From: Dastarcus helophoroides
Lineage: Eukaryota > Arthropoda > Insecta > Coleoptera > Bothrideridae
Assembly (NCBI GenBank): GCA_028583605.1
Contig: CM053337.1
Coordinates: 14,021,709-14,085,708 of the forward strand
Length of the DNA: 64,000 nt
Direction of reading: 5' to 3'
The notes under the pieces are model-generated. The model saw nothing but the letters and a program-made list of their open reading frames with translations, did no database searches and was not told the origin of the DNA. The position numbers were made by a program, and so were the translations under genes. Every line of letters begins with the position of its first letter. Position 1 is the first letter of the stretch. Positions 24,201 through 63,570 of the stretch are shown in pieces.

Positions 24201-26744
24201 CGGTTAGCTTTCCCTTAATCTGGAGTCAGTTACTCAGTGTAGTTAATTAGTGAATTAGTAGTTAGAAATCGATAAGTGAGTTAATAATTCAGTTGAAGTG
24301 TTCCGAGTTTAGTTTGGAAATAAAGTGGTATAATTCACAAGTGCAATCATTCGAACCGATAAGCCCGTAACAATATTGTAACAAAATTATAGAATCTAAT
24401 AAGGAATTTTTCTAGAAAAATTTGATGGGGGAAAGAGGCCGTGATAATGAATCAAATGGCAGATAAGCGCCCAAGAAATTTCCGCAAACGATAAGTCTTA
24501 TCTATACGTTCCATCTAGAAACCGAAACGGGATCCATAAATAGGGCATCCGGTCGGCTTTCCCTCAGTCCTGTCAATAAATAAGTTAGTTAATTAAACAG
24601 TGTTAGTGAGTTAATTAGTCAGGTTGGAAATAAAGTGGTTGTAATTTACGCAGTTTCAATTTCGAACCGATAACGCGCAACCATATAATATTTTTAATTT
24701 GTAGCTTATGGTTTTTCTTTTACGTAAACTTTGTAAACAAAAGATGCTTTTAATGCTATCCCTTAGTCCCGTCATGGTCGAATTAACGGAGTTCTACTGT
24801 AATGATTCCACAGTCGTTGATTTCGAATTCAATATTGTAACGAAATGTAAATTGTAGAATTTAGTACATAAAAATAATTTCTAGAAAGATCTGATAAGGG
24901 GAAAGCGGCCATGATAACGAAACAAACGGCAGATAAGCGTTCCAGAAATTTCGGCAAACGATACGCCTTATCTGCGAGATTTTTCTAGAACCTGGAAGCC
25001 AAAACTATATAAGGTGGTCGGCTTTCCCTTAAGTTAGTTAGATTAGGTGTAGTTAAGTAGTGAGTTAGCAGTTAGAAGTCAATAAGTGAGTAGTGATCCG
25101 AGTTGAGTTTGAAAATAAAGTGGGTATTATTCAATTCACGTATTAATCAATTCGAACCGATAAGTCCGTAACAATATATTTTATGTCAGAGAGAAATATA
25201 CGGAATGAAGTGTCTAATGTAAACGCATCGTAACCATACACTTATAAGTCTATGACCGTAACAATTGGGCGTAAGAAAAGTTTCTGGAAAGATCTGATAA
25301 GGGGAAAGCGGCCATGATAACGAAACAAACGGTAGATAAGCGTTCCAGAAATTTCGGCAAACGATAAGCCTTATTTGCCGAAAAGTTCTAGAAGCCGAGA
25401 GCCAAAACTATATAAGGCGGTCAGCTTTCCCTCGAGGAGGTTACTTATAGTCAGTGTAATTAGTGAGTTAGTAGAAGTCATTAATAAGTGAGTTAATATA
25501 CACTTGTGGTGATCCGTTTAATAATAAAGTGGGTATTCGATTCAGCAAGTGTTAATTCGAACCGATAAAGCCCATAACAATATTCTATTGAAGCAATACG
25601 AGACCAACAACCAAATTAGGTACGATATAACTAAAATAGTAAAGGTCACTAGTTAAAATACTACCTTGTTTCCACCATCTTCCATATAAGCTGGATAACT
25701 GCAAGAAAACACGATTGGTCGACCTGTTGCATTCAAGTAATTACTCATATTGGCGTAACCTTAAACGAAAATACCTTTTCGGTCCCCAAATTTATCCTCA
25801 CTTGTACACAAACCTAATTCCATATTTTCAGTATGAAGCGTAACACCCATCAAATTTAAAGTAGTCAACTTCCCACTCGGCGAGAGTTCGCGCATCCAGC
25901 TCTAAGTAGTCGATGCTCCCCGGATAACCAGCGCAAGTATGAGTGCCATAATCCCCATAAATCCCCAATTTTAATCCTTTGGCATGCACCTGAAACCCCC
26001 CAAGTTGATATATGGGCACGTAGATATACAAAATCATTTTTTTTTGGTGGAACCTTCAAAAATTGAAATACAAATCTTGTCCCCTGAAACCAAGAAAGAT
26101 TAAAAAATACAACAGAGGTTGCTCTAACGCGTTTCGACAGCCAAGCTATAATCTTCAGAGAGATACTCTCAACTAATCCTAAAATTAATCCTTACATACT
26201 AAGAATATTCGCTTTGTGCATGATCGACCGCATCCGAACGCGCATGCGCATCTAATCATACACGTCGTAGTGTCACAATTCCTTATCTATCAACTTCATA
26301 TATGTAATACTTCTATATGGCCAACTTTCTATTCTCTTCACGAGTTTGTTCCAACCAAATCCGATAAAGATGGAACTTAGATAAATAGCGAGTATTGCGC
26401 ATGAATTGAACCAAATGAACCAATCGCTACGCGCGGGTTAAACGGGTGTTTATGTTTGGCCGTGCACAGCTCACTTTGGCCATGCGCAGATGATTTGTAA
26501 CACCTGCGCATTGCGACTCATTAATGCGTGTGAAGGTCAGCGAGAAAGAGAAGTCTTTTCCATAAGAAACGAGGAACTGGCCATATAGAAGTATTACATA
26601 TATGATCAACTTTAACTATTTCTACNNNNNNNNNNNNNNNNNNNNNNNNNNNNNNNNNNNNNNNNNNNNNNNNNNNNNNNNNNNNNNNNNNNNNNNNNNN
26701 NNAAGATAGGAATTAACGAAAGAAAGGAAGAAAGGAAGAAAGAA

Positions 26745-28009: not shown

Positions 28010-31000
28010 GAAGAAAGGAAGAAAGGAAGAAAGGAAGGAGGGAAGAAAGGAAGCAAGGAAGTAAGCAAGAAAGAAACAAAGGGAGAAAGGAAGAAAGTAA
28101 GAGGGAAGAGAGAAAAGAGAAGAGAGAAGAGAGAAGAGAGAAGAGAGAAGAGAGAAGAGAGAAGAGAGAAGAGAGAAGAGAGAAGAGAGAAGAGAGAAGA
28201 GAGAAGAGAAGAGAGAAGAGAAAAGACAGAAGAGAAAAGAGAGAAGAGAGAAGACAGAAGAGAGAAGAGAGAAGAGAGAAGAGAGAAGAGAGAAGAGAGA
28301 AGAGAGAAGAGAGAAGAGAGAAGAGAGAAGAGAGAAGAGAAAAGAGAAAAGAGAGAAGAGAGAAGAGAGAAGAGAGAAGAGAAAAGAGAGAAGAGAGAAG
28401 ACAGAAGAGAGAAGAGAGAAGAGAGGAGAGAAGAGAGAAGACAGAAGAGAGAAGAGAAAAGAGTGAAGGGAGAAGAAAGTTCGACATTGCCTACAATGAG
28501 CTGAAATACTAATGTCGGAAAGGAAGAAAGGAAGAAAAAAAGAAAGGAAGAAAGAAAGAAAGGAAGAAAGGAAGAAAGGAAGAAAGAAAGGAAGAAAAGA
28601 AGAAAGGAAGAAAGGAAGAAAGAAAGGAAGAAAGGAAGAAAGGAAGAAAAGAAGAAAGGAAGAAAGGAAGAAAGGAAGAACGGAAGAAAGGAAGAAAGGA
28701 AGAAAGGAAGAAAGGAAGAAGAAAGAAAGAAAGAAAGAAAGGAATAACGGAAGAAAGGAAGAAAGGAAGAAAGAAAGAAAGGAAGAAAGGAAGAAAGGAT
28801 TAACGAAAGAAAGGAAGAAAGGAAGAAAGGAAGAAAGGAAGAAAGGAAGAAAGGAAGAAAGGAAGAAAGGAAGAAAGAAAGAAAGAAAGAAAGGAAGAAA
28901 GGAAGAAAAGAAGAAAGGAAGAAAGGAAGAGGGAAGAGAGAAAAGAGAAGAAAGAAAAAAGAAAAGAGAAGAGAGAAAAGAGAAGAGAGAAGAGAGAAGA
29001 GAGAAGAGAGAAGAGAGAAGAGAGAAGAGAGAAGAGAGAAGAGAAAAGAGAGAAGAGAAAAGAGAGAAGAGAGAAGAGAGAAGAGAGAAGAGAGAAGAGA
29101 GAAGAGAGAAGAGAGAAGAGAGAAGAGAGAAGAGAGAAGAGAGAAGAGAGAAGAGAGAAGAGAGAAGAGAGAAGAGACAAGAGAAAAGAGTGAAGAGAAG
29201 AGAGATGAGAGAAGAGACAAGAGAGAAGAGCAAAGAGCGAAGAGAGAAGAGAGAAGAGAGAAGACAGAAGAGAGAAGAGAGAAGAGAGAAGAGAGAAGAG
29301 AGAAGAGAAAAGAGGGAAGAGAGAAGAGAGAAGAGAGAAGAGAGAAGAGAGAAGAGAGAAGAGAGAAGAGAGAGAGAGAAGAGAGAAGAGAGAAGAGAGA
29401 AGAGAGAAGAGAGAAGAGAGAAGAGAGAAGAGAGAAGAGAGAAGAGAGAAGAGAGAAGAGAGAAGAGAGAAGAGAGAAGAGAAAGAGAAAAGAGAAAGAG
29501 AAAAGAGAAAGAGAAAGAAAGGAGAGAAAAGAGAAAAGAGAAAAAAGAAAAGAGAGAAGAGAGAAGAGAGAAGAGAGAAGAGAGAAGAGAGAAGAGAGAA
29601 GAGAGAAGAGAGAAGAGAGAAGAGAGAAGAGAGAAGAGAGAAGAGAGAAGAGAGAAGAGAGAAGAAAGCTCGACATTGCCTACAATGAGCTGAAATACTA
29701 ATGTCGTAAATGTCGACGCGATTTTTTTATCTTCAATCCAAATTCAAATTCTTCCACTTTTTCTATTTTAATAAAAAAAATGGCCACCTCCTTTTTTCCA
29801 GAAATTAACAATTTAAACTTAATTTTTTTCCAGCCAAGTTGCCTATAATAAGCCACGTTCTATATTATTTCAAATGAAAGTTTTCTTTTCTAATCAGAAA
29901 TGACATTTAATTCTGACATTTGTCCAGAAATGTTGGCTTCCAAAATTTGGAATCTTTTCGAAGTTTTGAGTTTCCAAAAATTCCGTCTCCATTTCGAGAA
30001 GAATTTGCGTTATTTTGACAATTTTGAGTTTAAATATTTTGCCCATTTTTAAACATTTTGGCTAAAAAATTCGAGTAAACGTTTACTATTGGTAAAATTT
30101 CAAAAGTTTCTCAAAAATTTGACTTTTTTTTAATATTAAACATAAATAAATCGATATATCAAGAGAAAAAACGAAATTTCGACTAAAGTCCAATTTCGAA
30201 GGAATTCGAAATTAAAAAAAAAAGCGAATTTCGAAAGATCTCTTTTGAGAATATTTCCACAACTGGATTCGTGTGTGCAACAAGAAATCAAATTATCAGG
30301 CGACGGATTGCAAAACATTGGTCGATAATTGGTAATATCGTTGTTTAAATAAATTTTCTTTCGTGTGAAACGAAATGAATAAAAAAATGAATTTTATTGG
30401 AATTGTTACCATATCGGGGTCGTTCCAATGGCCTGGTGCCGCAGCCGGGATAAACCTGTTTTGGTTCTTGCTGAACCAACTCATGATGTTCACAACGTCA
30501 GACCAAGAATCGCTTATGTCACCGTAATTCCTCCACAGGTTGCAGTACTTGCCAGCAAACGTGTAATTGACCTAAACAAAACTAATTTTAAGAAAAAAAA
30601 AAGCATAACTTATTAATAATGCGAAAGAAAACTAGATGATTTACAGTCGACTGATTGATGCTGATTGAAGCAACATGGAAATAACAACCAGATGTAACGA
30701 TGTAATTAAAGTCACAAAGATCACCAGTCTAAATATTACCTGTTTTCCATTACCTTCCATGTAAGCTGGATAACTACAAGAAAATACGATTGGTCGACCC
30801 GTCGCATTCAAGTAATTACTCATATTGGCGTAACCTTAAACGAAAATACCTTTTCATACCCAAATTTGTCTTCGTTTCTATACAAACCTAGATCCATATT
30901 TTCAGGTGAAGCATAACACCCATCAAATTTAAAATAGTCAACTTCCCACTCGGCGAAAGTCTGCGCATCCAGCTCTAAGTGATCGATGCTCCCCGGATAA

Positions 31001-33576
31001 CCAGCGCAAGTCAGAGTACCATAATCCCCATATATCCCCAATTTCAACCCTTTGGCATGCACCTGAAACCCCCCAAGTCGATATATGGACACGTAGATAT
31101 GCAAAATCTTACAAAATCCGCTAGTGCTTTGATTCCACTGGGAAACCTTTCCTTGTCTGCTTGCAATTTGTTGTTTTCGTCCCTTTCACGCGCCATCCAA
31201 CAGTCGTCTATGATGACGTATTCGTAGCCGGCGTCTTTGTACCCATCCCGGACCATGGTGGTGGCAATTTTTTTAAAAAGTTTCTCGCTGAAATTATGTG
31301 GATGGATTTAGACTGGGCGCATGATCAGTGACTAAATAATTATGTTTGGTGGAACGGACTGGTCCTTGGTTATCTCAAAAATTGAAATACAGAACTTGTC
31401 CCTGAAACCAAGAAAGATTAAAAAACACAACAACAAAAATCTCGCATGATCAGTGACTTTAAATAATTATGTTTGGTGGAACGGACTGGTCCTTGGTTAT
31501 CTTCAAAAATTGAAATACAGGATTTGTCTCCTGAAACCAAGAAAGATTTTTTTTTAATCTTTCTTGGCTTCAGGGGACAAATCCTGTATTTCAATTTTTG
31601 AAGATAACCAAGGACCAGTCCGTTCCACCAAACATAATTATTTAAAGTCACTGATCATGCGAGATTTTTTTTGTTGTGTTTTTTAATCTTTCTTGGTTTC
31701 AGGGGACAAGTTCTGTATTTCAATTTATTAAATAATTACTGGCCATCATTCGTAATACAATAACTTTTGCAATCATGACGCAATACTTATTATATCATGA
31801 TACAGCACTTATTGTATCATGATATAACACTCATTGTCTCATAATATAGCACTTATTGTATCATGATATAGCACTTACTGTGTCATGACACAGCACTTAT
31901 TGTATCATGATACAATCAATAATTGTTGTACATGATTGGGCGTGTTATCCAGATATGTTAGTCTTGACGCACACAGAAAGAGCAAAAAATTGAAATACAA
32001 ACAGAGAGATACTATATCTAGTATCTCTCTAAAGATGATCAGACCGTTCCACCAAAAAAAAAGACCAAAACAAAATTTTTGAAAGAGATTTGAAAAAACC
32101 CAATTTTCAAAAAAGGCGAAATGTTTCAAATCGTACTAATTTCATGTTTGGCCATGTTCAGCCCCAAAGCACATTTTAGCTCTCTTGGATTCAATTCTAA
32201 GAAGAGCGATTCGTCTAATTGATGACGAGAGTCTGATCGATTCTCGTGAAACACCAGAGCATAGGCGTATGGTTGGTGACTTGTCTCTTTTCTACAAGTA
32301 CTATCATGGAAGATGCTCGCAGGAACTAATAGGATTGATCCCCCCAAGGGCAAGATTCTTGAGGAGTACTAGATAGTCGGAGACAGCAAATTCCTGTGCG
32401 GTCCAGCTTGACACAGTGAGTACTTCTGTCTATGGAGACTCTTTTTTATATGGAACTTCCAAGTTATGGAACTTGTTACCGAAAGGAATTTTCCCCAAAA
32501 ATTACAACCTATCCTTGTTTAAGAAGGCGCTTCATCGCCATCTATCCTTATTTCCGCATCCTACTCGCAGTGCTTTGAAGGCATAATGGAGTTACCCTTT
32601 GCGAATGGATTAAACTTTAAAAAAATTGCAATTTTGACCAAAGTAAAGATTTTGAAAAAGGTCGAAATTTTGATAAATAATCAAAATTTCAAAAAGAACA
32701 AAATTTCGAAATGATGTTTAAAATTGAAAAATACAGAAATGCTTAGAAAGAAAGTCGAAATTTTTCGGACAATTGAAAAACTTCAAGATGCTTTTCACTC
32801 AAAATTCAACATTTTTCATTAAAAAACGAAATTTTCAAAAAAGCCCAAGTTTTTTAAAAGTGGTTCTAATTAAACATTAAAAAATGTAATTCTGAAAACG
32901 TAAGGATTTAAAAAAAGTTTGAAAATTTGAGAAATAGTCAAAAATTTCAAAAATAGATAAAATTTCGAAAAAATTTGATTTGAAAAAATCTGATTTTTCG
33001 AAAAAATGCGATTTGGAAAAATGTGAATTTTCAAAAAAGTTGAAATTTTAAAATAAAATCAAAATTTAAAAAAGTAATTAACAATTGAAAAACCTCGACA
33101 TATTTAAAAAAAGTTCAAAGTTATCAAAAAGTGAAATGTTTAGAAAACTACGAATTTTCCAATTTTAAAAATAAATAATTTAAATAAAAATAATAATTTT
33201 AAATAATTCAATCACAAATCTTGTCCCCTGAAACCAAGAAAGATTAAAAAACATCCCAAAGGTTGCTCTAGAGCGTTTCGATAGTCAAGCTATCATCTTC
33301 AGAGAGATAAATTTTTGAAAAATTAACAATTTTGAAAATCAATCAAAAACGTTTTTGACTAAAAACTGTTTTTCTTTTTTTTTGTGTGCGTCAAGCACAG
33401 ATGGGTAAGTTACTAGGGTTTTACCTTACGCATTCATCGGGGTAAGCGTCGCAGTCGGTGAGACATCGGTATCTTTGCCAGTGCATCCACCCCATCGGTG
33501 GCGTAAGGGCCAAACCGTTATCTAGGGATGCGATCGGACCTATTACGGCACACAACACTAAAGTCAGCTTGTACAT
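18226..33576 (-). CDS. Alpha-N-acetylgalactosaminidase-like GH27 enzyme, paralogue B, with exons 3-5 duplicated
   Basis: Minus-strand exons: E1 33425-33576, E2 31113-31287, E3 30888-31062, E4 30740-30834, E5 30410-30571, then E6 22283-22480, E7 22066-22227, E8 18440-18512 and E9 18226-18311. Together they are 1,278 nt, an uninterrupted 425-residue frame. It has a clean leader ([13 protein letters not shown]), the nucleophile Asp in KFDGC, the acid/base Asp in [17 protein letters not shown] (Ser and Ala, NAGA-type) and [11 protein letters not shown] second E3-E4-E5 set (23241-25989) lies between E5 and E6 and would have to be skipped. Only a 14-nt relic of an E6 start remains next to the outer E5 (about 29838-29851), so this is either two genes fused by unequal exchange or a misjoin near the N gap at 26626. 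Confidence 0.72.
18540..21660. repeat. Higher-order minisatellite: about eleven 282-bp units, each two 141-bp halves
   Basis: Marker words (GCATACCACGAAAAGATTCG for one half, AATACTACGAAAAGATTCG for the other) recur every 282 bp, for example starting at 18857, 19139, 19421, 20267, 20549, 21113 and 21395. Units are almost identical. The array fills intron 7 of paralogue B. Single, diverged copies of the same sequence stand at the same place in paralogues C (35220-35280, 35625-35880) and D (52050-52390), so the monomer is old intron sequence that expanded only here. The 76-codon frames it creates are by-products. Confidence 0.92.
22504..23058. mobile_element. MITE dimer with 8-bp target duplication
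   Basis: Two head-to-tail copies of a MITE of about 260-308 bp inserted as one unit. The outer ends are TATATACGTAATACTTC and GAAGTATTACATATATG, flanked by GATTCAGT (22496-22503) and AATTCAGT (23059-23066). Inner words include ATTGCGCATGAATGAACG. Same family as 26297-26604. No coding capacity. Confidence 0.8.
23514..23810 (+). mobile_element. Solo LTR, copy 3
   Basis: Starts TGTAACAAAATG and contains GATAAGGGGAAGCGGCCG, a TATA-like CCTATAAATAGGGCG and AATAAAGTGG. The 3' end is worn. It lies in the intron between the duplicated exons 4 and 5 of paralogue B, antisense to the gene. Confidence 0.75.
24017..24372 (+). mobile_element. Solo LTR, copy 4
   Basis: TGTAACGAAATAT to CCCGTAACA, with ATCTATATAAAGGGGC as TATA region and GAAATAAAGTGG as poly(A) region. 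Copy 5 begins four bases later. Confidence 0.8.
24377..24684 (+). mobile_element. Solo LTR, copy 5
   Basis: TGTAACAAAATTATAG to ACGCGCAACC. Separated from copy 4 only by ATAT, which matches the 4-bp AT-rich duplications of this family. Confidence 0.75.
24836..25173 (+). mobile_element. Solo LTR, copy 6, with 4-bp duplication ATAT
   Basis: TGTAACGAAATG to GTCCGTAACA, preceded and followed by ATAT. TATA box in AACTATATAAGGTGGTC. About 85 bp of extra sequence ending GACCGTAACA follows and also follows copy 2, so it may be part of a longer LTR variant. Confidence 0.82.
25255..25579 (+). mobile_element. Solo LTR, copy 7
   Basis: Begins without the usual first bases at GGGCGTAAGAAAAGTTTC and ends AGCCCATAACA. 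TATA box in AACTATATAAGGCGGTC. Fifth of the same-strand LTRs clustered between 23.5 and 25.6 kb. Confidence 0.75.
26044..26170 (-). mobile_element. Single fold-back-repeat arm with hammerhead-like core
   Basis: Contains CTTGTCCCCTGAAACCAAG and GCTCTAACGCGTTTCGACAG. On the minus strand 26121-26163 reads stem I TCTCT, core CTGAAGA, an imperfect stem II closing on GGCTGTC, GAAA, and AGAGC for the other side of stem I. One extra base follows CTGAAGA. It sits exactly where exon 2 of the duplicated NAGA segment is lost. Confidence 0.6.
26297..26604. mobile_element. 308-bp MITE with 27-bp perfect inverted repeats
   Basis: Ends CATATATGTAATACTTC and GAAGTATTACATATATG, extending inward through ATGGCCA/TGGCCAT, flanked by the 8-mer ATCAACTT at 26289-26296 and 26605-26612. 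Eight-base duplications fit hAT or another 8-bp superfamily; no transposase present. Confidence 0.88.
26626..26702. other. Assembly gap (77 Ns)
   Basis: A run of N directly before the GA-rich array. The true distance and even the linkage of the two sides are uncertain. It lies between the inner exon-3 copy and the outer exon 5 of NAGA paralogue B. Confidence 0.99.
26703..29710. repeat. GA-rich composite microsatellite, about 1.1-kb higher-order units
   Basis: Blocks of 8-bp GGAAGAAA repeats alternate with blocks of 7-bp AGAGAAG repeats. Each composite ends in a 38-base non-GA spacer containing GCCTACAATGAGCTGAAATA, flanked by CGACATT and AATGTCG (spacers at about 27362-27396, 28481-28517 and 29671-29706). 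The plus strand is almost pure purine over 3 kb. It lies in the intron upstream of NAGA exon 6. A smaller array of identical design lies in intron 5 of paralogue D. Confidence 0.93.
29711..30400. other. AT-rich intron with relic of NAGA exon 6 start
   Basis: TTGCCTATAATAAG at about 29838-29851 matches, on the minus strand, the first 14 bases of exon 6 (as at 22467-22480), then homology stops. The remainder is AT-rich TTTCGAC-type filler. Confidence 0.6.
31343..31728. mobile_element. Fold-back retro-insertion with 10-bp target duplication
   Basis: A 386-bp palindrome centred near 31547, flanked by TAAATAATTA at 31333-31342 and 31729-31738. Each arm contains GGTGGAACGGACTGGTCCTT and the CTTGTCCCCTGAAACCAAG-type word, and the left arm also contains a partial second copy. 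Intron 1 of paralogue B. No hammerhead core remains at the centre of this copy. Confidence 0.75.
31770..31920. repeat. Short tandem repeat of palindromic TATCATGATA words
   Basis: Six or so units of about 25 bp built on CACTTATTGTATCATGATA. Each unit contains the self-complementary TATCATGATA. Confidence 0.75.
32150..32586 (+). pseudogene. C-terminal fragment of a non-LTR retrotransposon ORF2
   Basis: The frame from about 32185 gives [12 protein letters not shown], then [15 protein letters not shown] and LIPP, a well-known stretch C-terminal to the reverse transcriptase of Jockey/CR1-like elements. After a stop and frame change at about 32370, a second piece reads SKLWNLLP and ends at TAA 32584-32586. 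Reverse transcriptase itself is absent; this is a 5'-truncated, decayed copy in intron 1 of paralogue B. Confidence 0.75.
32590..33200. other. AT-rich intronic filler
   Basis: Degenerate GTCGAAATTT motifs, the reverse orientation of the TTTCGAC filler elsewhere; no gene seen. Confidence 0.4.
33215..33310 (-). mobile_element. Fold-back-repeat arm with hammerhead-like core
   Basis: Contains CTTGTCCCCTGAAACCAAG. On the minus strand 33264-33307 reads TCTCT, CTGAAGA, an extra T, stem II GATAG with CTATC, GAAA, and AGAGC. Stem II differs from other copies at both sides yet still pairs. Confidence 0.55.
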
Positions 33577-36837: not shown

Positions 36838-38700
36838 AACGAATTAAATATGATTTATATGTGATAAGCGACATCAATTTTTTATTGGTAGAACGGACTA
36901 GTCTTTTGTTATCTTCAAAAATGATACACAAATCTTGTCCCCTGAAATCATAAAGAATAAAAAACACAACAGCTGCTTTAACGCGTTTCGATAGCCAAGC
37001 TAAATGTCTAAAAATAAAGTCAATATTCGAGGAAATTTTGCCTTATTTACGAAATTTTAATTTGTTTTATAAAACAAGTCGAAATTGAAATATCCTACAT
37101 CAAGGGTTGTACTCTCCCACATAAAAGCGGTATCTGGTACCTGTCACGTTAACGTAATCAGAAAAAAAGTTGACTGTTGACGCAAATTATAAACAAATTC
37201 GTCTCCTATCATAATCGTTATCATCCAAACACCCGGTATGAACGACTGAGCGAATTAAATATGATTTATGTGATAAGCGACATCAATTTTTTATTGGTAG
37301 AACGGACTAGTCTTTTGTTATCTTCAAAAATGATACACAAATCTTGTCCCCTGAAATCATAAAGAATAAAAAACACAACAGCTGCTTTAACGCGTTTCGA
37401 TAGCCAAGCTAAATGTCTAAAAATAAAGTCAATATTCGAGGAAATTTTGCCTTATTTACGAAATTTTAATTTGTTTTATAAAACAAGTCGATATTGAAAT
37501 ATCCTACATCAAGGGTTGTACTCTCCCACATAAAAGCGGTATCTGGTACCTGTCACGTTAACGTAATCAGAAAAAAAGTTGACTGTTGACGCAAATTATA
37601 AACAAATTCGTCTCCTATCATAATCGTTATCATCCAAACACCCGGTATGAACGACTGAGCGAATTAAATATGATTTATGTGATAAGCGACATCAATTTTT
37701 TTTGGTAGAACGGACTAGTGTTTGGTTATCTTTAAAAATGATACTCAAATCTTGTCCCCCGAATTGAAGAAAGAATAAAAAACACAACAGTTGCTCTAAC
37801 GCGTTTCGATACCTAAGCTAAATGTTTGAAAATGGAGTTAATATTCTAGAAATTTTCGCCTATTTACGAAATTTTAATTTGTTTTATAAAAAAAGTCCAA
37901 ATTAGTATATTCGACACCAAGGGCTGTACTCTCCTGCATAAAAACGGTATCTGATACCTGTCACGTTAACCTAGTAAGAAAGAAAGTTGACTATTTACCC
38001 AAATTATTAAAAAAATCGTCTCCCATCATAATCATTATCATCTAAAAACCCGGTATGACCGACTGAGCGAATTAAATATGATTAATATGTGATAAAAGGC
38101 ATTAATTTTTTTTGGTAGAACGGGCTAGTCTTTGGTTATCTTCAAAAATGATACACAAATCTTGTCCCCTGAAATCAAGAAAAAATAAAAAATACAACAG
38201 CTGCTTTAACGCGTTTCGATAGCCAAGCTAAATGTCTAAAAATAAAGTCAATATTCTAGGAAATTTTGACTTATTTACGAAATTTTAATTTGTTTTATAA
38301 TAAAAGTCGAAATTGGTATATCCGACACCAAGGGCTGTACTCTCCCACATAAAAGCAGTATCTGGTACCTGCCACGTTAACGTAATGAGAAAGAAAGTTG
38401 ACTGGTTACCCAAATTATAAACAAATTCTTCTCCCATTATAATCGTTATCATCCAAACACTCAGTATGAACGACTAAACGAAGTAAATATGATTGATATG
38501 TGATAAACGATATCAATTTTTTTTTGTAGGACTGATCCTTGGTTATCTTCAAAAATTGATACACAAATCGTGTCCCCTGAAATCAAGAAAAATTAAAAAA
38601 CACAACAAATGCTCTAACGCCTTTCGATAGCCAAGGTATCATCTTCAAAGAGATAACTATTGAATTTATACGAAATTGGATTTAATTCTGAATTTTCAAT
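36838..38700. repeat. Tandem array of about 4.5 units of 410 bp containing a fold-back-repeat arm
   Basis: Units start with GAATTAAATATGATT at about 36841, 37252, 37661, 38069 and, diverged, 38479. Each holds CTTGTCCCCTGAAATCA, GCTTTAACGCGTTTCGATAG and, 200 bp on, GGGTTGTACTCTCCC with AAAAGCGGTATCTGG. The first two units are nearly identical. Detached pieces of the unit occur at about 39745-39895 and 41060-41230. Confidence 0.88.
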
Positions 38701-43284: not shown

Positions 43285-43640
43285 TTCGACAGTATCTCTA
43301 TGAAGATGATAGCTTGGCTGTCGAAACGCGTTATAGCAACTTTTGCTGTGTTTCTTAATCTTTCCTGGTTTCAGGGGACAAGATTTGTATTTCAATTTTT
43401 GAAGGTAACCAAGGACCAGTCCGTTCGAAGTGTTTGGAAAATTTGGACTTTTTATTGAAAATTTCGACTTTTTATCAAATATTTCGACTTTTTATCGAAA
43501 ATTTCGACTTTCGACAGTATCTCTATAAAGAAACGCGTCGAAACGCGTTATAGCAACCTTTGCTGTGTTTCTTAATCTTTCTTGGTTTCAGGGGACAAAT
43601 CCTGTATTTCAATTTTTGAAGATAACCAAGGACCGTCCGT
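43285..43640 (+). mobile_element. Two tandem fold-back-repeat arms with hammerhead-like relics
   Basis: Two copies (about 43285-43430 and 43495-43640), each followed by CAAGGACCAGTCCGTT or a shorter version. The first reads TCTCTATGAAGATGATAGC, then GGCTGTCGAAACGCG; the second has lost stem II. They lie in intron 4 of paralogue C. Confidence 0.6.
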
Positions 43641-43789: not shown

Positions 43790-46700
43790 TCGAAAAATTG
43801 AATTTAACTAAAATTTCGATTTATGAAATTTGCTAACCATTTTCCGAATTTTGGCTTTTTTTTGATCATTTTGACTTTTTATCGTTAAATTTCGAGTTTT
43901 TCTGAAAGTTATGACCATTTTTGGAATTTGAACTTTTTTCAGAATTTCAAAAAATTCAGAATTTCGACTTTTTGCGAAAACTTCGAGTTTTTTAGTTGTT
44001 TGAAAACGTTGACCTTTTAAATTTCGAATTTTTGTAGTTTTGATTTTTTGATAAATTAACCTATTCTTGAAAACCTTAACTTTCTTCTTCTTCTTGTGAA
44101 GAACTCTGAATCTGAAGATTAAATTGATTTTTTTCAAAATTTCGATTTATGAAATTCGCAACCTTTTTCCGAATTTTCACTTTTTTCGATCATTTCGACT
44201 TTCTATCGTTAAATTTCGAATTTTTCTGAAAGTTATGACCATTTTTGGAATTTGAACTTTTTTCAGAATTTCAAAAAATTCAGAATTTCGACTTTTTGCG
44301 AAAACTTCGAGTTTTTTAGTTGTTTGAAAACGTTGACCTTTTAAATTTCGAATTTTTGTAGTTTTGATTTTTTGATAAATTAACCTATTCTTGAAAACCT
44401 TAACTTTCTTCTTCTTCTTGTGAAGAACTCTGAATCTGAAGAATAAATTGAATTTTTTCAAAATTTCGATTTATGAAATTCGCAACCTTTTTCCGAATTT
44501 TCACTTTTTTCGATCATTTCGACTTTCTATCGTTAAATTTCGAATTTTTCTGAAAGTTATGACCATTTTTGGAATTTGAACTTTTTTCAGAATTTCAAAA
44601 AATTCAGAATTTCGACTTTTTGCGAAAACTTCGAGTTTTTTAGTTGTTTGAAAACGTTGACCTTTTAAATTTCGAATTTTTGTAGTTTTGATTTTTTGAT
44701 AAATTAACCTATTCTTGAAAACCTTAACTTTCTTCTTCTTCTGAAGAACTCTGAATCTGAAGATTAAATTGATTTTTTTCAAAATTTCGATTTATGAAAT
44801 TCGCAACCTTTGTCCGAATTTTCACTTTTTTCGATCATTTCGACTTTCTATCGTTAAATTTCGAATTTTTCTGAAAGTTATGACCATTTTTGGAATTTGA
44901 ACTTTTTTCAGAATTTCAAAAAATTCAGAATTTCGACTTTTTGCGAAAACTTCGAGTTTTTTAGTTGTTTGAAAACGTTGACCTTTTAAATTTCGAATTT
45001 TTGTAGTTTTGATTTTTTGATAAATTAACCTATTCTTGAAAACCTTAACTTTCTTCTTCTTCTTGTGAAGAACTCTGAATCTGAAGATTAAATTGAATTT
45101 TTTCAAAATTTCGATTTATGAAATTCGCAACCTTTTTCCGAATTTTCACTTTTTTCGATCATTTCGACTTTCTATCGTTAAATTTCGAATTTTTCTGAAA
45201 GTTATGACCATTTTTGGAATTTGAACTTTTTTCAGAATTTCAAAAAATTCAGAATTTCGACTTTTTGCGAAAACTTCGAGTTTTTTAGTTGTTCCAAAAC
45301 GTTGACCTTTTAAATTTCGAATTTTTGTAGTTTTGATTTTTTGATAAATTAACCTATTCTTGAAAACCTTAACTTTCTTCTTCTTCTTGTGAAGAACTCT
45401 GAATCTGAAGAATAAATTGAATTTTTTCAAAATTTCGATTTATGAAATTCGCAACCTTTTTCCGAATTTTCACTTTTTTCGATCATTTCGACTTTCTATC
45501 GTTAAATTTCGAATTTTTCTGAAAGTTGTGACTATTTTTGGAATTTGAACTTTTTTCAGAATTTCAAAAAATTCAAAATTTCGACTTTTTGCGAAAACTT
45601 CGAGTTTTATTTGTTTTTTTGAAAATGTTGACCTTTTAAATTCCGAATTTTTGTAGCTTTGATTTTTTGATAAAATAACTTATTCCAGAAAACTTTAACT
45701 TTCTTCTTTTTCTGAAGAATAAATTGGATTTTTACAAAATTTCGATTTATGAAATTTGCGAAGCATTTTTCGAACTTTCGCCTTTTTTGAACATTTCGAC
45801 TTTTTATCGTTAAATTTCGAATTTTTCTGATAGTTGTGACTATTTTTGGAATTTGAACTTTTTCAGAATTTCAAAAAATTCAAAATTTCGACTTTTTGCG
45901 AAAACTTCGAGTTTTTTTAGTTTTTTTTGAAAATGTTGACCTTTTAAACTTCGAATTTTTGTAGTTTTGATTTTTTGATAAAACAACTTATTCCAGAAAA
46001 CTTTAACTTTCTTCTTTTTCTGAAGAATAAATTGGATTTTTACAAAATTTCGATTTATGAAATTTACGAACCTTTTTCCGAATTTTCGCTTTTTTCGATC
46101 ATTTCGACTTTCTATCGTGAAATTTCGAATTTTTCTGAAAGTTATGACTATTTTTGGAATTTGAACTTGTTTCAAAATATCGACTTTTTGCGAAAACATC
46201 GAGTTTTTTTAGTTTTTTTGAAAATGTTGACCTTTCAAATTTCGAATTTTTGTAACTTTGATTTTTTGATAAAATAACTTATTATTGAAAACTTTAACTT
46301 TCTTCTTTTCTGAAGAATAAATTGGATTTTTACAAAATTTCGATTTATGAAATTTACGAACCTTTTTCCGAATTTTCGCTTTTTTTCGAACATTTCGACT
46401 TTCTATCGTTAAATTTCTAATTTTTCTGAAAGTTATGACTATTTTTGGAATTTAAACTTGTTTCCAAATTTCGAATTTTTGTAGCTTTGAATTTTTGAGA
46501 AAATAACTTATTCCTGAAAACTTTAACTTTCTTTTTTTTCTGAAGAATAAATTGGATTTTTTCAAAATTTCGATTTATGAAATTTGCGAACATTTGTCAG
46601 AATTTTCGATTTTTTCGAACATTTCGACTTTCTATCGTTAAATTTCGAATTTTTCTGAAAGTTATGACTTTTTGAAATTTGAACTTTTTTCACAATTTCA

Positions 46701-48300
46701 AAAAATTCAAAATTTCGACTTTTCGCGAAAACTACGAGCTTTTTATTTTTTTGAAAACGTTGACCTTTTAAACTTCGAATTTTTGTAGCTTTGATTTTTT
46801 GATAAAACAACTTATTCCTGAAAATTTTAATTTTCTTCTTTTTCTGAAGAATAAATTGGATTTTTTCATAATTTCGATTTATGAAATTTGCGAACTTTTG
46901 TCAGAATTTTCGATTTTTTCGAACATTTCGACTTTCTATCGTTAAATTTCGAATTTTTCTGAAAGTTATGACTATTTTTGGAATTTGAACTTGTTTCAAA
47001 ATTTCGACTTTTTGCGAACACTTTCAAGTTTTCTTAGTTTTTTAAAAACGTTGACCTTTTAAATTTCAAATTTTTGTAGCTTTGAATTTTTGAGAAAATA
47101 ACTTATTCCTCAAAACTTAAACTTTCTTATTTTTCTGAAGAATAAATTGGATTTTTTCAAAATTTTGATTTATGAAATTTACGAACATTTGTCAGAATTT
47201 TCGATTTTTTCGAACATTTCGACTTTCTATCGTTAAATTTCGAATTTTTCTGAAAGTTATGACTATTTTTGGAATTTGAACTTGTTTCAAAATTTCGACT
47301 TTTTGCGAAAACTTCGAGTTTTTTCAGTTTTTTGAAAACGTTGACCTTTTAAATTTCAAATTTTTGTAGTTTTGATTTTTTGATAAAATAACTTATTCCT
47401 GAAAACTGTAACTTTCTTCTTTTTCTGAAGAATAAATTGGATTTTTACAAAATTTCGAATTATGAAATTTACGAACCTTTTCCCGAATTTTCGCTTTTTT
47501 CGATCATTTCGACTTTTTATCGTTAAATTTCGAATTTTTCTGAAAGTCATGACTATTTTTGGAATTAGAACTTGTTTCAGAATTTCGAATTTTTGAGAAC
47601 ACTTCGAGTTTTTTTACTTTTTTGAAAATAAGGACCTTTTAAATTTCGAATTTTTGTAGCTTTGATTTTTTGATAAAATAACTTGTTCCTGAAAACTTTA
47701 ACCTTCTTCTTTTTCTGAAGAATAAATTGGATTTTTTCAAAATTTCGATTTATGAAATTTGCTAACTTTTGTCAGAATTTTCGATTTTTTCAAACATTTC
47801 GAATTTCTATCGTTAAATTTAGAATTTTTCTGAAAATTACGAGTATTTTTTAAATTTGAACTCTTTTCAAAGCTTCGACTTTTTGCGAAAACTTTGAGTA
47901 TTTTAGTTTTTTGAAAATGTTGACCTTTTAAATTTTGAATTATTGTCGCTTTGATTTTTTGATAAAATAACTTGTTCCTGAAAACTTTAACCTTCTTCTT
48001 TTTCTGAAGAATAAATTGGATTTTTTCAAAAATTTCGATTTATGAAATTTGCTAACTTTTGTCAGAATTTTCGATTTTTTCGAACATTTCGAATTTCTAT
48101 CGTTAAATTTAGAATTTTTCTGAAAATTACGACTATTTTTTAAATTTGAACTCTTTTCAAAGCTTCGCGCGTTTTGCGAAAACTTTGAGTATTTTAATTT
48201 TTTGAAAATGTTGACCTTTTAAATTTCGAATTATTGTCGCTTTGATTTTTTGATAAAATAACCTATTCCTGAAAATTTTAACTTGCTTCTTTTCTGAGGA
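43790..48300. repeat. Satellite of about fourteen 320-bp units
   Basis: Six near-identical units (starts of the recurrent minus-strand frame at 44137, 44461, 44782, 45106 and 45430, spacing 321-324 bp) are followed by about eight increasingly diverged ones to 48300. Markers: GACTTTCTATCGTTAAATTTC, given here as GACTTTCTATCG and TTAAATTTCG, and CTGAAAGTTATGAC. Frames of 93-94 codons (lysine-rich) recur once per unit but carry no family resemblance and decay across the array, so they are not genes. Lies in intron 4 of paralogue C. Confidence 0.9.
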
Positions 48301-49070
48301 ATCCGACTTTAAATTTAGAATTTTAAAAATGTTGCATCAACTATTCAAGATTTAATCAAGTTTCGATTTTAATGGAAATTTTAAAAAGGAGTGTTTTCAA
48401 GTTTAAGTTGCTCACCTACGTATTACGGGCAACACCTATGTTAAACTGCATGCTCCTACACACACCGGTTTAGTCTGTCAGTTCTTAGAAATACCTTATG
48501 AAGAAATACAATTATTTAGCCAAAAAATTTAAGCTATAACACCATATTTCGAGAAAAAAGTTCATATTTCGCAAGACTCAAAATTGACACAAATATTACG
48601 TTCAACACGAAATTTTGATAAATCAGATAAACTTAAAATTCTTAATTACAAGTTTTTTAGAGAAGCTTCTAAAAAAGTAAAAATTTTAGGTTGAAGGTCA
48701 AAATTTCCCTCAAAACTCGAAAATTTCTGTAAAAAAGTCGAACTTTTAAGATGATTTTTGATTTTTTTAAAACTTTGATTTCGTTTTAAAAACTCATTTT
48801 ATTTTCTAAAACTACTTCGAACCTAAAATGTTGGCTACTTTTTTTTCGAAATTTGAATTTCTAAAAGTTTACTCTTTTTTAGAAATTTAAAGATAAAATT
48901 CTTCAAAAACTTCAAAAATTCAAGTTTAAACTTAAACTAATTTGGCAGTAAATGTGGTTAAAGCAGTAGCTAAACATCTAAATTGTTGTTGCTTGTTACT
49001 GTTTTGTTTCAATTGTACGTGTACAATTTTCGTATGTTTCGGTTTCGTTTTCGGCCGAAATCAGAGTAGA
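48300..49070. other. AT-rich intronic filler
   Basis: No gene or distinct repeat seen between the satellite and the reverse-transcriptase fragment, except TTTCGAC-type words. Confidence 0.4.
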
Positions 49071-57700: not shown

Positions 57701-59319
57701 AGGAAGAAAAAAAAAAGGAAGAACGGAAGAAAGGAAGAAAGGAAGAAAGAAAGAAAGGAAGAAAGGAAGAAAGGAAGGAAGAAAGGAAGAAAGGAAGAAA
57801 GGAAGAAAGGAAGAAAGGAAGAAAGGAAGAAAGGAAGAAAGGAAGAAAGGAAGAAAGGAAGAAGTTGCCTATAATAAGCTAAGATCTGTGTTAGATTATT
57901 TCAACTCGAATTCTTCTAACTTTCCTAGTTTATAAAAAATAGTAAGATCTCACTTTTTTCTGAGTTCGAAATTGCCTATTGTTAGATTCTCTGTCAGACA
58001 AACCAAACTTATTTTTACACCCCTCGGTGCTCACCAACCAAGCATCTGAATCAAATCTGAGAAATGCCAAAATCTAGAAGTTGCATAACTTCCATTCACA
58101 ATAAAAGTTTATAAGCACAAAAACGACACGTTAGCCCCACACCTGATGTTAGAAACTTTATATATCTTTTGAATTTGGCGCATTAAAGCAAATAGGAGCA
58201 TCGAACAATCAGTCATTGATGCGTGGGTCTTCCGTATCGACTGCGTGTACGAAGAGCTAGATGTCGTAAAACCACTTAAACTGTTCATGCGTAACTCTGT
58301 TCTGTTAATAGATCAGCCGCCAAGCTTAAATATTTTTAAGAGAATCTAACACTATAATGAGCCGAAATACCAATGCTAACGTCGTAATGAAAAACGATAC
58401 AATAAAAAAAATTTGTAGTTGTTACCATATCAGGGTCGTTCCAGCGGCCTGGTCCCCCTGGAAGGAGTTTATAATTGTTCCTGGTATACCAATCCATGAT
58501 GTTCAAAACGTCCGACCAAGAATCGTTTATATTTATGTAATTCCTCCACAGGTTGCAGTACTTCCCAGCAAGTTGGTAATCGACCTAAACAAAACTAATT
58601 TTGCAAAAGAAAACTCTATACGGATTCCACAGCCGATTTCGAAAAATTCAGTGCAATATGGGAGCAACAACCAGATGTATGATGTAACATGAAGCAATAT
58701 GGGAATAACAAACAGGTGTAACTAGTAACGATGTAACTAAAATCGCAAAGCTAACTAGTGAAAATATTACCCATTTTCCTTCAGCTTCCATATAAGCTGG
58801 ATAAGTGCAAGAAAAGACGATTGGTCGACCTGTCGCATTCAAGCATTTACTCATAGTGGCGTAACCTTAAACGAAAATACCTTTTGATCCCTAAATATAT
58901 CTTCACTTTTACCCAAACCTGATTCCATATCTTCAGTAGAAGCGTAACACGCATCTAATTTTAAGTAATCAACTTCCCATTCGGCGAAAGTTTTCGCATC
59001 CAATTCTAAGTGATACATGCTTCCCGCATAATTAGAGCAAGTAAGAGGACCATAATCCGCATAAATTCCCAACTTTAACCCTTTTGCATGCACCTGAAAC
59101 CCCCAAGTCGATATGTGGCGCCGCATAAATACAGAAAATCTTACAAAATCCGCTAGTGCTTTGATTCCATTGGGGAACCTTGTCTTGTCGGCTTGCAATT
59201 TGTTGTTTTCATCTCTTTCACGATCCATCCAATAGTCGTCTATGATAACGTATTCGTAGCCGGCGTCCTTGTAGCCGTCCCGGACCATGGTGGTGGCAAT
59301 TTTTTTAAAAAGATTTTCA
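51758..59319 (-). CDS. GH27 NAGA-like paralogue D, probable pseudoenzyme, exon 1 not in view
   Basis: Minus-strand exons: E2 59145-59319, E3 58919-59093, E4 58771-58865, E5 58426-58584, E6 56805-57002, E7 56587-56748, E8 51956-52028 and E9 51758-51822. All frames and phases are open (1,102 nt). The nucleophile Asp remains but its motif is KLDAC instead of KLDGC. The acid/base Asp of the RNYxDI motif is Asn (RNYININD; codon 58531-58533). The conserved DDCW is DDYW, losing a Cys expected in a disulfide, and [10 protein letters not shown] is GPGRWNDPDM. SCTYPAY keeps the NAGA-type Ala, with Thr after Cys. The protein should fold as GH27 but probably cannot hydrolyse. No exon 1 was found within 4.7 kb upstream, so it is either far away or lost. 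Confidence 0.82.
52417..56488. mobile_element. hAT-like element, 4.07 kb, 8-bp duplication, non-autonomous
   Basis: Ends CTAGTGTTGG and CCAACACTAG, flanked by TTACTTGA (52409-52416) and TTACTTAA (56489-56496). The subterminal 300 bp on the left and 100 bp on the right are packed with TATTCGAATAC words, a typical transposase-binding arrangement. No transposase; the middle is a second, nested element. Intron 7 of paralogue D. Confidence 0.8.
52833..55980. mobile_element. Nested hAT-like element, 3.15 kb, 8-bp duplication
   Basis: Ends CAGTGGCGGCTCG and, reverse-complemented at the right, CAGTGGCGGCTAG, flanked by ATTCCAGA (52825-52832) and ATTCGAGA (55981-55988). The inside is AT-rich TTTCGAC-type sequence with no transposase. 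A third terminus of the same family begins at 59823. Confidence 0.82.
57110..57880. repeat. GA-rich composite microsatellite in intron 5 of paralogue D
   Basis: Three composites of GGAAGAAA and AGAGAAG blocks, two of them ending in the same CGACATT...AATGTCG spacer as the array at 26.7-29.7 kb (spacers about 57388-57423 and 57653-57689). Purine-rich on the plus strand. It ends in TTGCCTATAATAAGCTAA at 57865-57882, a duplicate of the exon 6 acceptor. Confidence 0.9.
57980..58351. mobile_element. LTR-like or MITE insertion, 372 bp, duplication CTAT
   Basis: Perfect 12-bp inverted ends TGTTAGATTCTC and GAGAATCTAACA, starting TG and ending CA, flanked by CTAT at 57976-57979 and 58352-58355. AATAAAAG near 58102 could be a poly(A) signal, so a solo LTR of a second family is the best reading. 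Not related in sequence to the other LTR family. Confidence 0.7.
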
Positions 59320-59399
59320 CTGAAATATATAGGCGTAGCTAGAATAGGGGACTCCCCCTGGATCATGCAGCAAATGAAAAATTTATATTCAACCGCGGG

Positions 59400-61079
59400 A
59401 ATTTTTTTAGAAAATTTCATTTTCTTCGAAATTCATCTTTTCCTTGATACATTCTTTCGAAATTTAAACTTTTTTCTCAAATTTCGTATTTTCCAAAAAA
59501 ATGAACTTTTTTGAAACTTCGCATTTATTCATATTCTTTTATCAAACATGACTTTCACAAAATTTCGAATTTTCTAAATATTCGTTGGTTTTTTTTTTGA
59601 AATTTCGCAATTTCTAGAAATTCGATATTTTCTGAAAAAATCGACGTTTTTTTATTTCAATGTAAATTTTGGCATATTTATTAAAATTTGCCATTTCCTT
59701 GTAATGTGGTCGAACTTCTGGTAAAAAATTAAAGCCTTTATTGCATTTATCTGGAAATTTTGAAAGATATTTTTAGAAATTTTATAAAAAGAAAACAATT
59801 ACGAGAACATTCTAGGTTTTACCAGTGGCGGCTCGTAGCCAAAACTAAAGGGGATGCTGCGACAATATTTAATATTTTAGAATTTTTAACATTTCGACTG
59901 AAAATTTCGACATTTTCAAAACGTTACTTTTCGAAAACTTTAGATTTTCTGACAATGAAAACTTTTGATAATGTCGCGTTTTTTGAAAGGTTGGATTTTT
60001 TTTCCAAATTTCGACTGTATTGCAAAATTTAATTTTTACCATTTGAAAATTATTACTTTTTCTCAAAATGTAATTTTTTTCAAATCTGCACTTTAGACTT
60101 TTTAAATTTTCGACTTTTTTCTAAATTTCATCTTTGTTTATAATTTTTTTTTGGAAAATTATGATTTTTTTATTGAAAATTTCAATTCTTAATAACTTTG
60201 ACTGGTTTTTATTAAAATGTCAACTATTTTTCAAAATTTCGACTTTTTTTGCAGTTTCGATTATTTTTTAATTTTTTTGTTGTTGATAATCTCGCTATTT
60301 CTTAATTTTCAAAATTCTCTGAAAATTTCAATTTCTTTGAAAATTTTGAAATATTACGAAATCTTAAATTTTAATTTTTTTGATCTAAAATTTCAACTTT
60401 AAAAAAAAATGTTCCATTTTGATTCAAAATTTTAACCACTAAAAATTTAAACTTTTTCCAATATTTTTTCTCAATATTTCGATTTTTGAAAACCTCGATC
60501 TATCTGATAATTTTCACTTGTTTTCAATATTCCGGTTTCGCAAATTTTGATTTTTATTGAAAAGTCGAGTGCAAATTTCCCAACTATTCAAAATTTAAAT
60601 TTTTTTAAAATTTCGAATTATTTCGTAAATTCGATAAAAATTCTCAAATCCTTTGCAAGTTTTGATATTTTTTTAATTTCGACCATAAATTTCGACCTTT
60701 TCTTTTTGAAAATTTCTTCTTTTCCAAAACTTTGACTTCTTTTGGACATTTAAAAGATTTTGAAAATGTTTACCTTGACAACAAATTTCGACTTTCTTTA
60801 TTGAAAATTTTAACCTTTTCTTTAAATCTGCACTTCTTTGAAATTTTCGACTTTATTTTAATTCCCACTTTGTTGAAAATTCCGGCCTTTTTCAAATGTT
60901 CGAATTCTTCAAAATTTTAGTTATTTTCCAAAATTTAAACTTTTTGGAAAACTTAAAAATTTTTACTATATTTTTGATTTCAACTATTTTCAAAATTTTA
61001 ACATTTTTTGCAAACTGTCGATCATTTACTTGAAAGTTGTGATTTTTTATAAGTCAGACATTTCTTAAAACCATTTATT
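59400..61079. other. AT-rich region upstream of paralogue D
   Basis: TTTCGAC-type filler. A hAT-like terminus CAGTGGCGGCTCGTAGCC begins at 59823 and matches the right end of the element at 52833-55980, but no partner end was found. No exon 1 of paralogue D and no gene. Confidence 0.5.
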
Positions 61080-61743
61080 CTTCATGGTAGACCCTTATTG
61101 ACCGGAAATATTATGTTTTCTTCAATTTGTTTAACATTTCTTCGGCCCAGTTTGGAAATATTTAAATTTTTATGGTTTGTTGACAATTTTATAAACAGTT
61201 TTTGAAATGCGACTACGTGATATTTAAATTTATTGAAAACGTCACCTCATGACAGTTTACAAATTAAAAGGTTAGTTTATTTTACATAGAAAAGGAAAAA
61301 TGAAAAATAGGAGACCAAAAATTAGATATGGAAAAAATAAAAATTTTGTTTTTTTGATAAATTAGGAAAATACAAAAAAATACATAAAAGAGGTTGTAGC
61401 ACTGGACATCGACGTTTCGCTCTCATTTGAGCTCGTCAGCAGTGCATAACATGGAAAGGGAACAATGGGGAATAAATACTTAAAAATAAAAATTTTTTTT
61501 AAATATAAAAAAAAAAAATTATTTTTTCCATATCTAATTTTTGGTCTCCTATTTTTCATTTTTCCTTTTCTATGTAAAATAAACTAACCTTTTAATTTGT
61601 AAACTGTCATGAGGTGACGTTTTCAATAAATTTAAATATCACGTAGTCGCATTTCAAAAACTGTTTATAAAATTGTCAACAAACCATAAAAATTTAAATA
61701 TTTCCAAACTGGGCCGAAGAAATGTTAAACAAATTGAAGAAAA
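61080..61743 (-). mobile_element. Penelope-like retro-insertion with 16-bp target duplication
   Basis: The 16-mer CTTAAAACCATTTATT occurs at 61064-61079 and again at 61744-61759. Between them are 230-bp inverted repeats (about 61115-61345 and 61515-61743) around a 170-bp unique loop that contains the hammerhead at 61399-61445. Long target duplications, internal inversion and a minimal type I hammerhead are features known from Penelope-like elements. No reverse transcriptase or GIY-YIG frame is present, so this is a short, non-autonomous copy. Confidence 0.75.
61399..61445 (-). ncRNA. Minimal type I hammerhead ribozyme
   Basis: Reading the minus strand from 61445 down: stem I GCACTG; core CTGACGA (matches CUGANGA); stem II GCTC, loop AAATGA, GAGC; core GAAA; short stem III whose last pair leads to GTC; then CAGTGC, the perfect complement of the first six bases. 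Every invariant core base is present. Self-cleavage is predicted after the GTC, between plus-strand positions 61405 and 61404. The very short stem III is the form known from Penelope-like elements. I checked this by eye only. Confidence 0.85.
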
Positions 61744-61759
61744 CTTAAAACCATTTATT

Positions 61760-63570
61760 GAAATTTTCGACTGATATTTCGTAAATTTCGGCTCCATTTC
61801 AAAACTTCGACTTTTTTTTCAAAGTTTCGGCTCTTTTTGAAAACTTGACTTTTTTTTTGAAAAGTTTAAATTTTTTTAAAAATTTTATTTATATATTTTT
61901 TAAACATTTCCAAGTAAATCTTCGACTTAATAGAAAAGATTCTTTTTAAACTTGAACTATTGAATATTTCGACTTTTTTCAAAATTTTAGGGTTTCAAAA
62001 TTTCAACTTTATTCGATAATTTTAAATTTTCTCCAATATTCAAAAAATTCAGCTTTTTTGAAAACTTAATTAAAAAATCCGCAATTTATTTTGAATATCG
62101 ATATTTTTCCAAAAATTCGTCTTTTATTCACATTCCCAAAATTATTGAAAATGTCGACCATTTTAAATTCAATTTTTCTTAAAAAACTGCTTTTCTGATA
62201 ATTTTAGCTTTATTTTTTAAAAGTGGTAAAGTTTTTCTTTTTAAATTTACATTTTTTTGGAAAAATTTCGAAATAACCCTCGAATTAAAAACAAATTAAT
62301 AACAAAAATTTCTGTTTTTAAAATTGAGCAAAACTAAAACAATTTTCCATAAAAAACTGGCATATACACGCCTGGATGGCTGCATGAATTTGTAGTCTAG
62401 GTTGCATTCTTCTTGCATACGACATTGTTGGCGATGGCAATAGTTTCGCTATGGACCAATAGGTGGTAGTACTAAGAGTCACTCGCCTCGACGCCTGTGA
62501 ATGTTTTAGTACTTACTTGTCGCGTTGATTGAATACATATTAGATATATATAGCTTATGACAAAATGCGTATACCACTTTTCTCTATGCATACTCCAAAA
62601 CGTTGTTAAGGAAGTGCTTGGTACCTAGTGGTCAATAGTAAAACCTCTGAGTAAAAGTATTACACTTTGGCAGGGGAAAACAGAGTTCTTTATGGTTTTG
62701 GTCATTTATCCAAGATCTACACCAAAGTCAAACAATAATTATTTTCTCTTATTGATATGTCCAAGGTCGCCGCGTGATGGGATGGCAATTGGACTGATTT
62801 CTATACCCAGGTTTCTTAAGTTTCACTTCAATGAATACACTTTTAAATTATGAAACTTTGACAAAACACCTTTTTCTTATAGAGTTTAAGACATTTTATT
62901 AACTTCGAATTTTTAAGCCAAATTCTCATCTTTAACTTGAAATATACTGTTCAAAATTTTCAAATTTTTAAAAAAATTAGAAATTACTAAACGAATGCAG
63001 TAAATTTTAAGAAATAACTCCAAATTTAAAAAAAAAACCGTGAAATTTATCCTTTTAATTTACAACTCGTTATTAATTGAATATTTTCAATTTGAAGTCA
63101 ACATTTTAGGAAAAAGAGAAATAATAATAATTGTTAATTTAAAGTTAGAATTTAAAGTAAAAAAATTAAATTTATTTACAAAAATGTTTTCAAAATTTCA
63201 AGTTAAACTTGCTACTTTTTTTCCTTCGATTCAAAATTTTATTTTTTTTAAATTGTTCCAATAACTCGCGTTTAAATTGGAAAATTCGAGACATTTTTTT
63301 AACAAAATGTTTATTATTCTAGTAATTTCAACTTTTTATAGACGTGTGGAAAATCTCTTTTTATTTTTAAAATCATAACTTTTTCTCAACATTTCGAATT
63401 GTAAATTTACAAGTTTATTCTTCTCTTCATATTTCCACTTTAATCACGAAATCGGATTTTTCTAGAAATCTTGTATTTTCGAACGAACTTTTATTTAAAG
63501 TCGTGACCGTTATATTTTTTACTCTTCAACTTGAAACGTGTCGTGAGCATTTTATGTATTCAATCAACGT
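61760..63570. other. AT-rich region with dispersed repeat copy
   Basis: Mostly TTTCGAC-type filler. The block 62375-62525 repeats 2735-2880 (words GCATGAATTTGTAGTCTAGG and GCATACGACATTGTTGGCG). No gene seen. Confidence 0.5.

Follow-up and report, generated by a model that had tools for sequence, protein, structure and literature searches.

The hammerhead motif described here forms the center of a 664-bp inverted-repeat insertion (61080–61743) in the window, by which we mean the whole 64-kb stretch of DNA that was analyzed (Table 1). On balance, we read the locus as a genuine type I hammerhead carried in a small non-autonomous retroelement of the retrozyme/Penelope-associated type, and the element is probably young. 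This insertion setting, with its inverted arms and 16-bp direct repeat, best explains why a ribozyme is present at this site. The initial annotation had recognized the motif, its coordinates and its non-random character, all of which stand; the surrounding insertion and the direct repeat had been missed.

Direct reading of the minus strand over 61360–61480 gave the hammerhead segments in the order listed in Table 1. No base of the core (CUGACGA, GAAA and GUC) is missing. Stems I and II comprise 6 and 4 bp, and stem III has 3 bp (A-U, C-G, G-U). The sequence is of type I, with a CUGANGA...GAAA...UH core, three stems and an open stem I. Cleavage is predicted between 61405 and 61404 (minus), a position that came out the same in both readings of the strand; the core, the coordinates and the lengths of stems I and II had likewise been read correctly. 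We then scanned both strands for a full motif, requiring the core, UH and at least 5, 4 and 3 bp in stems I, II and III, respectively. The site at 61399–61445 is the only one in the window, and none appeared in 150 × 128 kb of sequence simulated under a dinucleotide model of the window. This bears out the earlier statement that the chance of such an arrangement in AT-rich filler is small. A scan for cores had also turned up a second candidate at 39919 (+); its 3-bp stem II fails the full definition, and it was rejected.

Table 1. Features of the insertion and of the hammerhead motif at its center
Feature	Position	Strand	Basis or remark
Target-site duplication (presumed), left copy, 16 bp	61064..61079	+	CTTAAAACCATTTATT
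Tail, 35 nt	61080..61114	-	outside left arm; 3' end of ribozyme-sense RNA
Left inverted arm, 226 nt	61115..61340	+	reverse complement of right arm
Spacer, 178 nt	61341..61518		between arms; holds the single ribozyme
Right inverted arm, 226 nt	61519..61744	-	last base doubles as first base of right direct repeat
Target-site duplication (presumed), right copy, 16 bp	61744..61759	+	CTTAAAACCATTTATT
Type I hammerhead, core and stems I–III	61399..61445	minus	direct reading; motif scan and simulations; Rfam HH9
Stem I, 5' strand, GCACTG	61445-61440	minus	
Core, CTGACGA	61439-61433	minus	
Stem II, 5' strand, GCTC	61432-61429	minus	
Loop II, AAATGA	61428-61423	minus	
Stem II, 3' strand, GAGC	61422-61419	minus	
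Core G12-A14, GAA	61418-61416	minus	
Stem III, 5' strand, ACG	61415-61413	minus	
Stem III loop, TCGA	61412-61409	minus	
Stem III, 3' strand, TGT	61408-61406	minus	
C17	61405	minus	
Stem I, 3' strand, CAGTGC	61404-61399	minus	
Hammerhead_HH9 full-length match	61382..61454	minus	Rfam alignment; includes bases aligned to stem I internal loop

For comparison with known families, we searched Rfam. Across the whole window, no family reached its gathering score. A permissive search of 61040–61800 (761 bases) gave Hammerhead_HH9 (RF02275) as the best match, with the whole model covered, at 36.1 bits (E 2.3e-7) versus a gathering score of 52; the score was 36.0 bits with only 57 bases supplied. A hammerhead family is thus matched at a low E-value, though below gathering. 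HH9, which we take to be the RECK intron hammerhead, shares with 61399–61445 the stem II GCUC/GAGC, the length of stem I and the bases flanking stem I. Moreover, UUAU/UAC next to stem I aligns to the HH9 internal loop UUAC/UAC, which speaks against the minimal form that the initial annotation had proposed. In this sequence, however, four of the five outer-stem pairs of HH9 are non-standard, so that the loop lacks an equivalent closure, and the predicted fold carries a different 3-bp outer helix; the form may still be a minimal one. In addition to the outer stem and the lower score, the insect-like host and the mobile-element setting distinguish this hammerhead from HH9.

Pattern searches for relatives were made in two collections, viral_contigs and genome_contigs. 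A tight ribozyme pattern had no match in either; in viral_contigs, neither the tail pattern nor the two patterns for the arms had any. These zeros say little about insects, because the collections hold viruses and prokaryotes. A loose ribozyme pattern matched at least 117 loci in genome_contigs, bacterial by title among the 80 listed, and these loci were used as a control; full motifs were present in three of the 117 (four sites). Two of these three loci also gave no gathering match in Rfam, a weak control because they may or may not be real ribozymes. In literature searches, none of the listed titles and abstract openings (up to 20 papers per search) mentions a hammerhead within a tailed, inverted insertion present as a single copy, which is a weak form of absence. 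The empty pattern searches and the Rfam score below gathering are what might be said for a hammerhead-like string assembled by accident in an AT-rich region. Yet the simulated sequence held no such site, the HH9 match has a low E-value, and the searched collections are viral and prokaryotic, so that an accident is hardly credible. The hammerhead string is no chance product of AT-rich sequence.

Self-cleavage of the predicted ribozyme is plausible. In predicted folds, the ribozyme strand alone favors a UGACG/CGUCG helix, tying the core to stem III. This competing fold has an energy of -16.6 kcal/mol versus -11.8 for the best open core (a gap of 4.8 kcal/mol), and the open core with stem III formed comes to -10.9 kcal/mol. 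Stems I and II are present in competing and open folds alike. The 10 core bases are free in about 0.03% of the ensemble, versus 29% for the HH9 consensus, in a folding model that omits the core's non-standard pairs as well as tertiary and loop–loop contacts. Folding stability alone is unremarkable: z was -2.20 for a 52-nt fold (5 of 200 shuffles equally stable) and -1.11 for a 91-nt fold (22 of 200). In this model, the competing helix counts against fast cleavage. One could thus argue that the mobile element is real and its ribozyme a relic, cutting poorly or never, with C7 and stem III paired in the competing helix. The energy gap, a stem III of just 3 bp including a G-U pair, and the ordinary z-scores are all consistent with a relic. 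But the core letters are all intact, and the undiverged arms (see below) would have left little time for decay. Nor is C at position 7 odd in itself, because two of the four full motifs in the bacterial control loci have it (CTGACGA), and nearest-neighbor models leave out stabilizing contacts. We regard a relic as unlikely.

The arms of the insertion are 100% identical over 226 nt, with a GC content of 25%, and form one of three inverted pairs in the window (≥80 nt, ≥85% identity, <6 kb apart; 61115–61744 in this case). Zero differences in 226 paired positions point to a recent insertion, provided that gene conversion has not homogenized the arms. The ribozyme-sense RNA (minus) runs from the spacer through the ribozyme and the arm to the tail, followed by the left direct repeat; the 35-nt tail has no counterpart beyond the right arm. 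There is no ORF of ≥80 aa in 61080–61743, and BLAST found no second copy of the element within the window. With regard to the direct repeat, none of 20000 simulated flank pairs had a 16-bp match, the longest being 15, seen once. Four 16-mers recur in 60000–62600, of which the three others are A/T-rich and lie away from the ends of the element. Exact 16-mer pairs 500–800 apart are common window-wide: there are 9870, spread over 31 bins of 500 bases, and a large share of the pairs fall in bins containing tandem arrays. Because such pairs are common, the 16-bp repeat stands out by its placement at both ends of the element.

These features bear on two further explanations. One is that an assembly or library chimera made the inverted repeat and that there is no biological element. 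Perfect arm identity is what inverted artefacts show, but neither a one-sided tail nor a 16-bp direct repeat on the outer side of each arm is expected from an artefact, and we consider this origin highly improbable. The other is that a non-autonomous DNA transposon, or a foldback MITE, whose arms would be long terminal inverted repeats, acquired the hammerhead as cargo from a retrozyme. Long, perfect arms do flank a short spacer, and elsewhere in the window inverted repeats of 430 bp enclose a DDE_3 transposase ORF. The hallmark of TIR transposons and MITEs, however, is inverted repeats that extend to both ends, together with a short target-site duplication (TSD) of fixed length, and cut-and-paste elements normally leave duplications shorter than 16 bp. 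Here, 35 nt at one end are unpaired, with no equivalent at the other, and the 16-bp duplication is too long for typical cut-and-paste elements. A DNA transposon therefore seems quite improbable.

Other contents of the window were surveyed as well. Pfam domains were matched by 7 of 10 ORFs: CRAL-TRIO, Melibiase_2 (three), a sterol-sensing domain, an RT fragment and DDE_3. For the CRAL-TRIO exon, the best named match among the 120 of 165 matches listed was from Exocentrus adspersus (79% identity), and the next named were from Cryptolaemus montrouzieri, Psylliodes chrysocephalus, Rhamnusium bicolor and Oryctes borbonicus, then Diuraphis noxia. Most of the listed matches carry no species name. We take the first five to be beetles and the last an aphid, so that the host is probably beetle-like. 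The three Melibiase_2 (alpha-galactosidase) exon pieces lie on both strands (10304–10642, 30823–31185 and 58854–59432), which suggests a local gene family. A mariner-like ORF (16149–17102, +; DDE_3 at 26.5 bits, below the cut-off of 28.6) is flanked, within 15357–17581, by inverted repeats of about 430 bp with 95.8% identity. A 266-bp tandem repeat at 12471–13408 contains a tRNA-like stretch, GGGAGTCGAACCC, in which ARAGORN called no tRNA. Satellite-like arrays at 18624–21656 and 43795–48302 have units of 141/282 bp and about 290–324 bp.

An interspersed repeat of roughly 110 bp is found at 9733–9951, 11426–11630, 26038–26188, 33199–33309, 36913–38655 and 43288–43621; in two places inverted copies abut head to head, and the repeat recurs within a 409-bp array. 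CTGAAGA sites at 33302, 26158 and 9837 (minus) belong to this repeat. BLAST gave 19 matches to it; the 13 of ≥80 nt were aligned, and the 6 shorter ones were dropped. CTGAAGA is kept in just 3 of the 13 aligned copies and absent in 10, so the repeat was not taken as a hammerhead family.

How might the ribozyme-bearing element have arisen? The motif, arms, tail and direct repeat are seen in the sequence itself, whereas transcription, catalysis, the enzyme involved and the course of insertion given here are inferred. A target-priming reverse transcriptase, of Penelope type (GIY-YIG) or another, would have nicked AT-rich host DNA; the implied nick at the left end would follow ...ATTTATT. The tail occupies the RNA 3' end, where target-primed cDNA would begin, and synthesis would have proceeded from there across the left arm and on into and past the ribozyme. 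The right arm, inverted and tailless, could stem from self-priming of this cDNA or from another cDNA made on the opposite strand, and repair would then have left the 16-bp duplication. If two cDNAs had begun at start sites separated by 35 nt, one arm would have the tail and the other would lack it. Alternatively, the cDNA may have self-primed in an A/T tract at the inner junction. In the life cycle of such an element, cleavage by the ribozyme would yield RNA of unit length for circularization and reverse transcription.

In its most specific form, which we advance tentatively as a possibility, a hammerhead retroposon was inserted by Penelope machinery via two target-primed cDNAs from adjacent start sites of a Penelope-like element (PLE). 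If true, this would account at once for the inversion of the arms and for a 35-nt tail at one end alone. It would also provide structural evidence for the proposed, unproven mobilization link from PLEs to retrozymes, and it would define a new class of retrozyme, inverted and with a single ribozyme. As to how animal hammerhead retroelements are mobilized, a probably young element with a full hammerhead and PLE-style scars makes the PLE link testable within one host. Under such a link, sibling copies would be expected to have the same tail boundary, along with the start sites used by the resident PLE.

Published descriptions of PLEs offer the closest anatomical parallels. In Adineta vaga, Pen2a has 218-bp pLTRs, a 181-bp inverted pLTR, a 31-bp tail and a 9-bp TSD, and other copies have TSDs of 8 or 10 bp, or none (PMC3846280). 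The frequent head-to-head inverted repeats of PLEs are attributed there to self-priming, which is held to need an antisense template (PMC3846280), a restriction that counts against our reading. For an Anolis PLE, a 30–40 bp tail corresponds to the stretch between two RT start sites, AT-rich ATT sites are preferred for cleavage, and cutting and extension take place on both strands (PMC11167929). Set against these published passages, the present insertion is similar in its inverted head-to-head arms of ~0.2 kb, one-sided tail in the 30–40 bp range, presumed TSD and AT-rich target (PMC3846280, PMC11167929, PMC7761336). It differs in that the 16-bp repeat exceeds the published TSDs of 8–10 bp (PMC3846280). 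Moreover, the ribozymes of PLEs are described as minimal and inside the pLTR, whereas the ribozyme here lies outside the repeated arms (PMC3846280, PMC11167929, PMC7761336). Lacking an ORF of ≥80 aa, and with it any candidate for the PLE RT/GIY-YIG endonuclease, the element was rejected as a PLE itself. An ATG in loop II (61426–61424, minus) opens a 34-codon frame (61426–61325) 22 nt before the cut. This recalls the start of PLE ORFs at the hammerhead, as in PAc, whose ORF begins at stem II, 26 bp upstream of the cut (PMC11167929); the coincidence is not used as evidence.

The second comparison is with elements that carry hammerheads and no coding sequence. Animal retrozymes, reported in insects among other animals, are described as non-coding and low in GC, with type I hammerheads that have a stem III and TSDs of >4 bp (PMC7229834). 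The AT-rich arms, the lack of an ORF and the 16-bp repeat of our element agree with this description. Retrozymes are, however, tandem direct repeats (dimers and up), each unit with a hammerhead, and are expressed as linear and circular RNAs of about 170–400 nt (PMC7229834). With one ribozyme in 64 kb and arms that are inverted rather than direct, the element was rejected as a tandem retrozyme in the published sense. By description, it can also be likened to Sm-alpha and Sj-alpha of schistosomes, which are non-autonomous retroposons with a type I hammerhead and whose descriptions, as far as they extend here, make no mention of inverted arms. PLEs are regarded as strong candidates for moving retrozymes, a hypothesis of the retrozyme authors (PMC7229834). 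The element has the look of a retrozyme that is non-autonomous and was mobilized by machinery of the PLE type.
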